Assembly: GCA_947447825.1 (NCBI GenBank)
Contig: CANFLL010000039.1
Span: 1 to 36,419 of the forward strand
Direction: 5' to 3'
Source of the DNA: Chitinophagaceae bacterium
GTDB taxonomy: Bacteria > Bacteroidota > Bacteroidia > Chitinophagales > Chitinophagaceae
Length of the DNA stretch: 36,419 nt
This document shows, in pieces, positions 12,781 to 36,419 of the stretch; position 1 is the stretch's first letter, and the number at the start of each line of letters is the position of its first letter. The position numbers and the translations under genes were made by a program. The notes under the pieces were generated by a model that worked only from the letters and a program-made list of their open reading frames with translations, was not told the DNA's origin and made no database searches.

Positions 12781-14487
12781 CTATTGAGCCTTCACTAGAG
12801 CTATATCATCTACATAACAAAATGAGTTAGCATTTCCTTCTACATCAAATCCAATTTCAACTTTACCATCCTTAACCTCAATGTTGATAAGTTTAATCTC
12901 TTTCCATGTATCATTTTCATTATTGAAGTTAAAAGCAGTTCTAACTCCTTTGCTTATTGCATACATTTCTAGTTGGTTGAAGCCTATTCCGTTCTTAACT
13001 TTTGCCGTAAGGGCATAGTTGCCATCTTCCAATTTAACAAAATTAGAAGAGGAAATAACCTGAAATATATTACGCTTAAAGTTGATTCGATCACTTATTG
13101 CTAAACTCTTTTCTCCTATAACGTTGTTTCTTTCTGTTGTATTATTGAAATGATTTAAAACGGGAGAACTAGACGTATCAAAACTTATACTATTGCCTTC
13201 AATCACTTTTGTAACCCAACCTGTTAGTTGCAATTGCTTGGGTTTAAATTGCATCGGCACAATACGCCTGTCTGCTTCAAAACTTCCATTGCTCACATAA
13301 TTATTATCATTAGCCACTCTCCATTCGCCGGTTTCGCTATTAATGTCCCAAGAATTAATTGAATTGAAATAAGGTATTGCACCATCAAATGAAAGGGGAA
13401 CCCATTGGTTATATCCCAAACCATTACCTGCAAAATCAGCCCACCTATCCCCACAATACACTATTGTTTCTTGCTTACTACCTTTCACCGAAACAAAGAA
13501 TCCTGTTTGAGTAATGTGCGCATAATCGGCTGAACTTCCATTCATAACTAGCATGTTTCTTTCTGGTCTATATGGCCCTCGGATGTTGTTTGAAACTAGA
13601 TAATAGGGGAGGGAGGCGTCCCATCCATAAATATTAGACGCACACATGTAGTATTTTCCTCCATATTTAAACATGCAATTCCCTTCTCTGCTTTCGCCTT
13701 TAAAAACCTGTGTACAATCCAATAAGTTTGCCAAGCCATCCTTAACACCAATCTCCGAAACATACAATTTGTTTCTGCCCTTGCCATAGGAATAAATCAG
13801 GTATGACTTTCCATTTTCTTCATCATTAAACACGGTTTGATCTCCAGTATTGTCTGTACCAATAAATCCTTTCATGCTGATATGTTGATGCCAAACAAAA
13901 GGTTCAGTTGGAGTATTAGATACAGCGAAAAGTACTCCTTTGCCATGCTGAACAATCAATACGTATTTGTTTAGCTCTTTTAAATAGGCAACACCCAATC
14001 GACCGACCCAAGTTTTTGTTCCTCCATTTTTCATTAGCTCTTCAGGCGTAAGTACATCACCTTCAAAATTCCAGTTGACTAAATCGGTGGAACTGTAACA
14101 GGTAACAGATTGGAACGTTGCACTTTTAATGCTTGCGGTTGGATTATCTCTGTAAATGTCAGCTTCTTTATAATGTACGCCATACCAATAATATTTTTGT
14201 AAGCCAGTAACTGGGTCTAGGAATTTAAAGATGCCACCACCTTGGCTGAAAATTGGCTGTCCATTTTGGGTGTTCCAAAACACATCATTGTGAATATTGC
14301 GAAATTGGGCGTTGGCTGAGAACACAATTAAATTAATAAAAAAGTTAACTAGGAAGGGGCTTAAAAAGCGAATAAGTTGTTTTTGCACTGAATGGAGAAT
14401 GATGATATTTAATAAATGTATAAATACTTTTCGATTTACCATCGACTCTAAGCTCATTTGTTCGTTTAATTTCTTTAAAGATTTCAA
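12781..14487 (-). CDS. secreted family-43 glycoside hydrolase with C-terminal accessory domain
   Basis: A GH43-type five-bladed propeller enzyme, probably acting on galactan, arabinan or xylan side chains outside the cytoplasm. The opening VFWNTQNGQPIFSQGGGIFK with YYWYGVHY resembles exo-beta-1,3-galactanase-like members. The likely pKa-modulating Asp is in GDQTVFND and the likely general acid is Glu268 in SREGNCMFKYGGKYYMC. I could not place the usual N-terminal catalytic Asp base, as also reported for some galactanase-type members. After about residue 395 comes a jelly-roll-like domain (NGSFEADRR to YVDDIALVKAQ). Signal cleavage is likely after FSANA. The preceding 60 residues are long for a signal peptide, so the true start may be Met16 or an alternative codon. 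No SusC/SusD or other CAZyme genes are nearby. Confidence 0.8.
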   Translation of the reverse strand: MKSLKKLNEQMSLESMVNRKVFIHLLNIIILHSVQKQLIRFLSPFLVNFFINLIVFSANAQFRNIHNDVFWNTQNGQPIFSQGGGIFKFLDPVTGLQKYYWYGVHYKEADIYRDNPTASIKSATFQSVTCYSSTDLVNWNFEGDVLTPEELMKNGGTKTWVGRLGVAYLKELNKYVLIVQHGKGVLFAVSNTPTEPFVWHQHISMKGFIGTDNTGDQTVFNDEENGKSYLIYSYGKGRNKLYVSEIGVKDGLANLLDCTQVFKGESREGNCMFKYGGKYYMCASNIYGWDASLPYYLVSNNIRGPYRPERNMLVMNGSSADYAHITQTGFFVSVKGSKQETIVYCGDRWADFAGNGLGYNQWVPLSFDGAIPYFNSINSWDINSETGEWRVANDNNYVSNGSFEADRRIVPMQFKPKQLQLTGWVTKVIEGNSISFDTSSSPVLNHFNNTTERNNVIGEKSLAISDRINFKRNIFQVISSSNFVKLEDGNYALTAKVKNGIGFNQLEMYAISKGVRTAFNFNNENDTWKEIKLINIEVKDGKVEIGFDVEGNANSFCYVDDIALVKAQ

Positions 14488-14535
14488 TTGAAATTCGTTA
14501 TTGTGAAGGTGATAGTTGACTCTAAGATTGAGTTC

Positions 14536-15170
14536 TTAATTCTACTTTGACAGATTAGATTTTATAATGTTCGTGTGTAATATTTTGAAGTTAAGCATTA
14601 GTTTTTTATTAAAATCTTTATTTCAACAGGCAAATCCGTGTGTTGTAAGAACAAAATATTGAGGTTGTGTACACTTGTGAAAATTGATCTGAGCGAAAGT
14701 AATGATTAATTCCCTTGATTTCAAATGAATGAAGCTTCTCTCATTTCGCAAACCAAATTCTGCTGAGTATATTCTATAAAACCCTTTACTGTCAATGAAT
14801 ACATCATTTTATTTAGCAATTTTAGTAACAAAAAGCGTCATTAACTCACTTGAGTCAGTCCACGACTCAAGTGAGTCCTTGGCTGACTCAGGTGAGTCGT
14901 CGACTCACTCAGGTGAATCTTTTTCTGACTCAGGTGAGTCGTGGACAGACTCAGGTGAATATAAGCGTGACTCAGATGAATAAATGGAAGAAAGAGGACA
15001 AAAGAATGTACTCACTTTGATATTCTGCGTGTTTGGGATAAGCTTCTAGAAAGTTTAGAACATTCTGAGAGTTGGAACAGAAGCATAAAAATTTATCGAA
15101 TTTCCTCATGAAATTAGCGGTATAGTTCCTGAGGGATAAAAATCGTTTTAATCTGTCAAAGTAGAATTAA
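14536..15170 (+). mobile_element. element A: 635-bp non-autonomous TIR element (MITE-like)
   Basis: The ends are perfect inverted repeats: 14534-14557 pairs with 15149-15172 over 24 bp, beginning TTAATTCTACTTTGACAG. A second copy (element B, 22728-23434) is present in reverse orientation. The two share the ends, the left arm (14737-14771 versus 23200-23234 with one mismatch in 35), the central 21-bp array and the right arm (14978-14998 versus 22901-22921, identical over 21). TTAA occurs at both outer ends of both copies and may be the target duplication. No transposase is encoded, so any movement would need an enzyme supplied in trans. The left end lies 49 bp from the GH43 start, so the insertion replaces or borders that gene's promoter. 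Confidence 0.8.
14846..14983 (+). repeat. 21-bp tandem array inside element A (6.6 units)
   Basis: Units start at 14846, 14867, 14888, 14909, 14930, 14951 and 14972. The consensus is TCAGGTGAGTCGTSGACTSAC-like, full of GACTC/GAGTC dyads. All frames stay open because 21 is a multiple of 3. The frame starting with the ATG at 14795 would give a 62-residue peptide of DSGESxx heptads ending in EYKRDSDE. The same frame in element B keeps the ATG region and the EYKRD ending but has a TGA in its first unit, so coding is unproven. Confidence 0.85.
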
Positions 15171-15280
15171 GATCCCTCTTTTTTATATTATAGAGGCTTT
15201 GGATCGAAAAAGTCTATTTGTTGGATAAGCTAAAAACTTTTTTGAACTCAATTAAAGATGAAGCGTATTGTTTTAGCATT

Positions 15281-15302: not shown

Positions 15303-15388
15303 GCGGCGATGGCGAAATTGGTAGACGCACTACCTTGAGGTGGTAGCGCCTTTTACCGGGCATGGGAGTTCGAATCTCCTTTGCCGCA
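15303..15388 (+). tRNA. tRNA-Leu (anticodon GAG)
   Basis: An 86-nt cloverleaf. The acceptor GCGGCGA pairs with TTGCCGC (one G-T), with discriminator A at 15388. The D-arm includes GGTAGACGC. The anticodon stem CTACC/GGTAG holds loop TTGAGGT with GAG at 15337-15339. A long class-II variable arm follows, then a T-arm with GTTCGAATC. The 3' CCA is not encoded. It decodes CTC and CTT leucine codons. Confidence 0.97.
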
Positions 15389-15394
15389 CATCTT

Positions 15395-22727: not shown

Positions 22728-23434
22728 TTAATTCTATTTTGACAGATTTAAATAATCGTTACTTCCAAGAAGCTTTGTGGCAAATTACAGGAAGAAAAAC
22801 GATAAGTTTTTGTCAACTCCTGTCAACTACCCGAAAGTTTTACACTTTCAAGAAGCTCCTGCCAAATACGTACAATATCAAAGTGAGTTACTTATTTTGA
22901 TCCTCTTTCTTCCATTTATTCAACTGTATCACGCTTATATTCACTTGAGTCAGTCGATGATTCACTTGAGTCAGCCAAAGATTCACCTGAGTGAGTCGAC
23001 GACTCACTTGAACTAGAAAAAGATTCACTTGGGTTAGACAAGGGTTCAGTTGAGTCAGTCCACGACTCAACTGAGTGAGTCGACGACTCACCTGAGTCGT
23101 CGACTCACTCAGGTGAATAAATGACGCTTTCTGATGTTAATATTGCTAAATTGAATGATGGATTCATTTACAGCAAAGGATTTGAAGGGCAAATAGGTTT
23201 ATACTCAGCAGAATTTGATTTGCGAAATGAGAGAGGGTTCATTCTTTTGATATCAAGGAAATTATCATTCCTTTCAGTCAGATAAATATTCACAAGTATA
23301 TCCAACTTCAATATTTTACTCTTACAGTACCAAGGTTGCCTGATGTTTTATGGATTTGATAAACAACTAATCCTAAACCTAAAAATATTACACACATACA
23401 TTATCAAATCTAATGTCTCAAAGTATAGAATTAA
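22728..23434 (-). mobile_element. element B: 707-bp inverted copy of element A
   Basis: It is homologous to element A along its whole length but reversed. Left end TTAATTCTATTTTGACAG (22728-22745) matches A's right end. The right end (23411-23434) is a degenerate version with small insertions, ending in TTAA. The inner flank 23200-23234 matches A with one difference in 35, and 22901-22921 matches perfectly. It is longer mainly because its array has three more 21-bp units. Divergence between copies and in one end suggests an old, probably immobile, insertion. It lies between ribF and the MbnH gene. Confidence 0.78.
22916..23116 (-). repeat. 21-bp tandem array inside element B (9.6 units)
   Basis: Nine full units tile 22928-23116 with a partial 12-bp unit at 22916-22927. 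Units carry the same TCAGGTGAGTCGTCGACTCAC-like consensus as element A. One terminal unit (23096-23116) is nearly a mirror inversion of its neighbour, creating a strong dyad around GAGTCGTCGACTC. Open minus-strand frames give LTQVNxx or SGESxxx heptads, a side-effect of the period. Confidence 0.85.
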
Positions 23435-36337: not shown

Positions 36338-36340
36338 ATA

Positions 36341-36419
36341 GTGGTTAGTGGTTAGATATTAGTTATTAGTGGTTAGTTATTAGTGGTTAGTTATTAGTGG
36401 TTAGTTATTAGTGGTTAGT
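36341..36419. repeat. 14-bp tandem repeat at the right edge
   Basis: GGTTAGTTATTAGT repeats exactly at 36371, 36385 and 36399, with a further partial at 36413 running off the window. The preceding 30 bp are looser GTTAGTGGTTAGATATTAGT variants. It begins 4 bp after the ABC-F stop codon, and total length is unknown. Confidence 0.9.

Follow-up and report, generated by a model that had tools for sequence, protein, structure and literature searches.

What is the 635-bp stretch with inverted ends that lies beside the GH43 gene of this member of the Bacteroidota, and what does its interior carry? The window, the whole stretch of 36,419 bp that was analyzed, is contig 39 of a 4.65-Mb genome assembly of 187 contigs (G000). 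Reading the sequence alone had suggested a small non-autonomous element family, judged by perfect 24-bp inverted ends, a body without a transposase and a homologous second copy in the window. All three observations hold: the arms (14534-14557 and 15149-15172) are exactly complementary over all 24 bp, no transposase is found inside the first copy (copy A), and a second copy (copy B) lies further along in the opposite orientation (Table 1). TTAA lies inside the 24-bp arms on both sides; because the length of 635 bp counts both TTAAs, the element proper is 627 bp long. The match of the outermost 2 bp (TC/GA) seems to be accidental, since the other full-length copies lack it. An end pattern of 19 positions, allowing up to 3 mismatches, is matched three times in the window, compared with 0.06 matches expected by shuffling. 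Copy B is the most diverged of 20 full-length copies in the genome, with 80% identity to their consensus outside the internal palindrome array.

Table 1. Features of the two element copies in the window.
Feature	Position	Strand	Basis
Target duplication, left copy (TTAA)	14536..14539	.	Outside 4-mers are direct copies also in 4 non-TTAA copies
Copy A, a non-autonomous MITE of IS701 type, 627 bp	14540..15166	+	Homologs in 45 or more genomic places; ends common to IS701 elements
Left terminal inverted repeat, TTCTACTTTGACAGATTA	14540..14557	+	End searches, consensus comparison
Embedded ~105-bp repeat with TATAC..GTATA ends, dispersed alone in sister species	14670..14771	+	
Palindrome array of copy A, 7 units ACTCA-NN-TGAGT, 21-bp period	14844..14981	+	
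Right terminal inverted repeat	15149..15166	-	End searches
Target duplication, right copy (TTAA)	15167..15170	.	As for the left copy
MITE copy B, including TTAA on both sides	22728..23434	-	Opposite orientation to copy A
Copy B palindrome array, 10 units, 21-bp period	22918..23118	-	

The two copies belong to a family dispersed through the genome, as had been proposed. A search of the whole genome with a 22-base end (up to 3 mismatches) gave 51 matches, and none with the reversed control; further copies are thus present, and the element is not a local duplication. Together with a DNA search using copy A, the end search places the family in at least 45 places, a minimum because 40 of 100 candidates were scored in the first DNA search, with the caveat that half-copies at contig ends may be two parts of one copy. 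Both ends are in reach at 20 of these places; the other 25 are partial, 10 of them located at contig ends. The 20 full-length copies measure 581-728 bp including both targets, and their mean identity outside the array is 85% (95% for the closest pair), indicating an old family with no recent burst. In 24 of 25 copies checked, neither end is crossed by an open frame of at least 90 codons; the exception, L028, has a 91-codon frame that lies partly within the element and crosses one end. According to rough ORF calls, the genes flanking 25 copies are divergent in 8 cases, co-directional in 14 and convergent in 2, with the right neighbor absent in 1. A length below 1 kb, inverted ends, a target duplication (see below), the lack of a transposase and many dispersed, mostly intergenic copies characterize the family as a MITE. 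One copy (L063, 2134-2312) contains a 163-bp insert with the ends GTAACTATTCAGGGG/CCCCTGAAGAGTTAC, bordered by the 8-bp duplication TTAAAATC; it is probably a second, younger small element.

The neighborhood of copy A consists of the GH43 frame on one side (12781-14487, minus strand; PF04616, E 1.3e-15) and a tRNA-Leu gene on the other (15303-15389), which begins 133 bp after the end of the right TTAA. The longest GH43 frame opens with TTG, and copy A starts 49 bp from this codon, the distance originally given. That figure stands for the TTG start; the first ATG is 30 bp further in, and the distance therefore ranges from 49 to 79 bp or more. On the earlier suggestion that copy A may supply or disrupt the GH43 promoter, a spaced Bacteroidota promoter motif was sought, and it is found in none of the 20 full-length copies.

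TTAA had been noted at both ends of both copies. It is present, but as a duplicated 4-bp target and not as a fixed flank. When the 4-mers outside the ends are read in element orientation, TTAA stands on both sides of 10 of the 20 full-length copies, while GTAA/GTAA is found in 1 and TTAG/TTAG in 3. The 4-mers of the remaining 6 copies are unequal, which we put down to mutation; one of these, L011, has an inverted non-TTAA pair, and L002, counted as unequal, resembles a direct TTAG pair displaced by one base. Identical pairs (14 of 20) exceed the 7.96 expected in shuffles (p 4e-4); the identical non-TTAA pairs, considered separately, number 4 of 20 (p 0.0015). The matching non-TTAA pairs indicate that TTAA is a preferred target that is duplicated and does not form the outermost part of the terminal repeat. 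G025, a genome from a different genus within the family, has two related elements with IS701-type ends (L108, 1501-1695, 195 bp, and L099, 1501-1694, 194 bp), with the 4-bp duplications GTAT/GTAT and ATAA/ATAA on their outside.

To which transposition system do these ends belong? The sequence-only reading knew of no named Bacteroidota element of this design, a view corrected here: the design of the ends is that of the IS701 family. The published description of this family gives the end consensus ---YACT-Y--YR, a length of 1400-1550 bp and target duplications of exactly 4 bp in nearly all cases (PMC2266710); the available text on ISTth8 likewise gives a 4-bp target duplication (PMC6352166). Compared by eye, the end TTCTACTTTGACA fits all 7 fixed positions of the consensus. 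Two annotated IS701 elements from gammaproteobacterial plasmids have 9 or 10 of their outer 10 bases in common with the MITE; the ends of one, TTCTACTTTG / TTCTACTTTGTTAA, lie between CTAG and CTAA, and those of the other, TACTACTTTG / TACTACTTTGTCAG, inside TTAA/TTAA.

An end search of 149 related genomes yielded matches in 11, G000 included. Apart from the G011 element described next, the matches in relatives mostly lack a partner end, and several resemble chance hits. The sister genome G011, from the same genus, contains in succession TTAA, the end, a frameshifted transposase gene, the end and TTAA, measuring 1480 bp end to end, which agrees with the published length of IS701 elements. The two frame pieces of the transposase match the NCBIfam IS701 model (2.8e-23 and 5.4e-29), each scoring below the whole-protein cut-off because it is a piece, and also match Pfam DDE_5. 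The ends of this element agree with the MITE consensus at 19 of 22 and 18-19 of 22 bases. Apart from the ends there is no significant common sequence, and the MITE is therefore not a simple deletion derivative of the G011 element. The autonomous relative with the same ends and a transposase that had been suggested as a check thus exists in a sister species, but its gene is broken and none was found in G000: a search for an IS701/DDE_5 (PF13546) gene there was negative, in a fragmented assembly that could have lost one. DDE_5 genes occur in 3 of 13 genomes of the genus, G000 not among them; in the two besides G011, the stretches analyzed around the DDE_5 genes lack the MITE ends. Closer intact IS701 relatives were sought more widely. 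Genome contigs gave one locus at 100% identity, evidently the same G011-type locus, viral contigs gave none, and plasmids gave 101 records, all below 60% identity among the best 15 of the 101. In G005, contigs C41 and C132 (bases 1-116) begin inside one multicopy element, with about 98 bp that lead up to this terminal repeat and then CTAT or CTAA; the remainder of this multicopy element was not found in the assembly, and it is probably an IS element of IS701 type missing from it.

The MITE and the IS701 family are accordingly alike in the end consensus, in the 4-bp target duplication and in that ends like those of the MITE enclose an IS701 transposase gene in a sister species (in G011 only, and frameshifted). 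They differ in that IS701 elements, at their greater length, encode a transposase, whereas the MITE has neither a transposase nor any interior similarity to the G011 element. Could the MITE instead be mobilized by another family with 4-bp YTAR-like duplications, such as the IS5 group, its likeness to IS701 being due to chance? IS5-group elements can have similar targets, and G000 contains three DDE_Tnp_1 (PF01609) genes and no IS701 gene. We nevertheless consider this explanation very improbable, given that the stretches analyzed around those three genes have no such end at fewer than 5 mismatches in 17, that the one transposase gene seen with these ends on both sides belongs to the IS701 family, and that the annotated IS701 elements agree so closely with the MITE in their outermost bases.

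The interior of the MITE, which the sequence-only reading left undescribed, contains two kinds of repeat. Consensus positions 134-237 correspond to a sequence that is dispersed independently in sister species, where it has the same TATAC..GTATA ends; the MITE-embedded ~105-bp repeat is an older copy of it. Matches (for example, at locus L036, 1480-1600) number 37 in G011, 44 in G003 and 19 in G012, with up to 10 each in G007, G005 and G008, and many of them are partial. Five of the best G011 copies show 91-96% identity to the query.

After the ~105-bp repeat follows a row of up to about ten palindromes of the form ACTCA-NN-TGAGT at a strict 21-bp period. Ten units are present in 10 of the 20 full-length copies, and loss of whole 21-bp units is common. 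Pairs of units at 21-bp spacing (up to 3 mismatches) number 335 in G000, 29 in G012, 26 in G007, 22 in G011, 16 in G008 and 8 in G002; reversed controls give at most 5 in any genome, and all other genomes at most 2. The arrays thus stand out in 6 of the 13 genomes of the genus and in none of the 136 others searched. We sampled 19 array loci among the matches listed, 18 from five sister species and one from G000; they include two orthologous pairs, and 8 had earlier been matched by the copy A search. MITE flank sequence is absent from all 19. The arrays have 9 or 10 units at 15 loci and 5, 8, 11 or 12 at the remainder, as called by a score that is biased toward well-matched units though not toward spacers. 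G002 and some G011 arrays have variant units, such as ACTCATTTAAGT and ACTCGCTGGAGT. By rough ORF calls, a frame of at least 100 codons is open across the array at 4 of the 19 loci, and the genes beside the arrays show no clear orientation bias. One orthologous array (L168/L171; G007:C46, G012:C11) adjoins the same gene in both genomes, with the protein start MAHFPDKEATL in G012.

Other short-period arrays were also observed. The window contains two unrelated tandem arrays outside the listed long ORFs, at 161-260 and 535-650, with periods of 21 and 42 bp, the latter including the palindrome CTAGTAAATTTACTAG or close variants. A heptamer-type array (36339-36419; period 7/14, TAGTGGTTAGTTAT) is truncated by the contig end. 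The periods of the arrays in this window recur as multiples of 21 or 7. Matches to the palindrome array in viral contigs (12 exact two-unit stretches of only 2 or 3 units each, 57-64% GC, ten of them alike) were rejected as not being the same arrays. Two viral contigs, L207 (from 9495) and L215 (from 8484), have three copies of ACTCACGTGAGT at exact 21-bp spacing and 57% GC; these triplets resemble operator triplets and are possibly a parallel to the MITE array.

Why would a MITE carry such an array? We compared column variation across the 20 full-length copies. The TCA..TGA cores (60 columns, six per unit) vary at 0.011. The corresponding values are 0.091 for the outer arms, 0.113 for the spacers, 0.174 for the center, 0.058 for the element ends and 0.091 for the remainder of the element. 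The cores are therefore held, and not the outer arm bases. They vary about eight times less than the remainder of the element, and less even than the transposon ends; TCA/TGA triplets outside the array vary at 0.075. Core variation is below spacer variation in 10 of 10 units, and 20000 random draws, each of 60 outside columns, gave no value as low. In the gapless alignment of the ten copies with exactly ten units, core offsets vary at 0.00-0.03 and spacers at 0.12. A similar pattern is seen between species, in an independent test. The orthologous G007/G012 array is syntenic over 3 kb at 73% identity, and within its 189 bp, without a gap, the two genomes match at 46 of 54 core positions and 30 of 36 outer arm positions, as compared with 31 of 81 in spacers and 8 of 18 in the center; the right flank matches at 113 of 221 positions and the left, partly coding, at 203 of 281. 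The spacers have turned over while the sites and the 21-bp register were kept, a comparison made at one locus, the second orthologous pair (also from G007 and G012, 97%) being too close to tell.

We read the array as a putative protein-binding array carried by the MITE. Twenty-one base pairs are two helical turns, so that a bound protein would occupy one face of the helix, and changes in the pairing of the arms are mostly uncompensated, which favors recognition as double-stranded DNA over hairpins. Our tentative interpretation, which is quite possibly correct, is that the array is a so far undescribed functional DNA element restricted to the genus, on which a dimeric DNA-binding protein would assemble cooperatively along one face; that selection keeps it at orthologous sites; and that in this species it was captured by an IS701-type MITE and seeded in dozens of further copies, in which the cores would be held while the remainder decays. 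A rather unlikely account is that a minisatellite without function was trapped in the MITE and is decaying there. It has a precedent in BrickBuilt, described in the available text of its source as a minisatellite trapped in a MITE (PMC4596501), and is consistent with the frequent loss of whole units, with outer arms (AC..GT) that vary like the remainder of the element, and with the unrelated arrays of 21-, 42- or 7/14-bp period in the same window. However, slippage or conversion would homogenize the spacers as well, whereas it is the cores that stay nearly invariant relative to the spacers, the element remainder, the ends and the outside triplets; in the G007/G012 array, likewise, cores and outer arms are retained over spacers in a gapless register.

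The palindromic units also raise the question of whether the array acts as RNA, as a string of small hairpins affecting termination or mRNA stability. Copy A folds with a z of -7.0 against 20 shuffles, much of it due to the terminal arms and the array themselves, and one of the five arm pairs, the inner C-G, pairs slightly above shuffles (0.900 vs 0.881, p 0.0035). The other four show no excess, one being clearly below the within-array shuffle, and convergent genes occur at only 4 of the 19 array loci, with no bias (rough ORF calls). With no consistent covariation among arm pairs, we rejected the hairpin reading as improbable. Rfam searches of the window at gathering scores returned only the tRNA, at 15303-15388. 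Still less probable is that the array encodes a small protein of DSGES heptads (about 83 aa) carried by the MITE. Of the 20 full-length copies, 14 keep the corresponding frame open, compared with 0.39 per copy in a simple neutral simulation (naive binomial p 0.005), with 12 stops where 24 are expected; for each of the remaining five frames, open copies number 0 to 2 of 20. Yet silent (88 vs 84.6) and replacement (257 vs 248) changes are at the neutral level, third positions vary least, stops fall in the same frame in 7 of 8 translated arrays of relatives, and fixed TCA/TGA cores alone reduce stops. We therefore rejected this gene on its neutral dN/dS, its codon-position variation and the stops in relatives; the stop deficit is only partly explained.

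For the element as a whole, we are highly confident that it is a non-autonomous IS701-type MITE, moved in trans into 4-bp targets, with an embedded repeat and array, and subject to later decay. In the proposed sequence of events, a transposase, presumably of the IS701 family, would recognize the 18-bp ends TTCTACTTTGACAnATTA in trans and move the MITE into AT-rich 4-bp targets, preferably TTAA, each insertion duplicating its target. An ancestral copy would first have acquired the ~105-bp dispersed repeat and a complete array of ten palindromes at 21 bp; the family would then have reached its present places and have been decaying since. A dimeric DNA-binding protein is predicted to occupy the palindromes, which would line up along one helix face at intervals of two turns.

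Bacterial MITEs are already known, as is one Bacteroidota MITE with a trapped minisatellite. This element, BrickBuilt of Porphyromonas gingivalis, and the MITE described here are alike in belonging to Bacteroidota, in being intergenic, in carrying a tandem array and in having inverted ends that resemble a known IS family. As far as the available text of its source describes it, BrickBuilt has a 23-nt repeat without spacers and ends like those of the IS5-family elements ISPg1/ISPg9 (PMC4596501), neither of which is found in our MITE; the latter has IS701 ends, a 21-bp period, a conserved palindrome core and a free spacer, and sister species have its type of array free of the MITE. Extragenic palindromes of the REP type are likewise repeated and extragenic, and are set apart by description from the strict 21-bp tandem spacing of about ten units seen here. 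An IS1182-type MITE is on record in the literature, in a source whose available text includes no IS701-derived MITE, and the main text of a 2024 MITE review makes no mention of IS701 (PMC10969869). Neither an IS701-derived MITE nor such a 21-bp array was met in the literature searched, in part among the matches listed, and either could still be in print.

An odd repeat has thereby become a classified element, and IS701 transposition is tied to a MITE in Bacteroidota. The analysis further brings to light an array of palindromes at strict spacing, with cores more highly conserved than the ends of the transposon, and this conserved array is the part of the MITE worth following. Should a host protein indeed bind these sites, the MITE would be a selfish element that has distributed the binding sites for a host regulator or nucleoid protein genome-wide.
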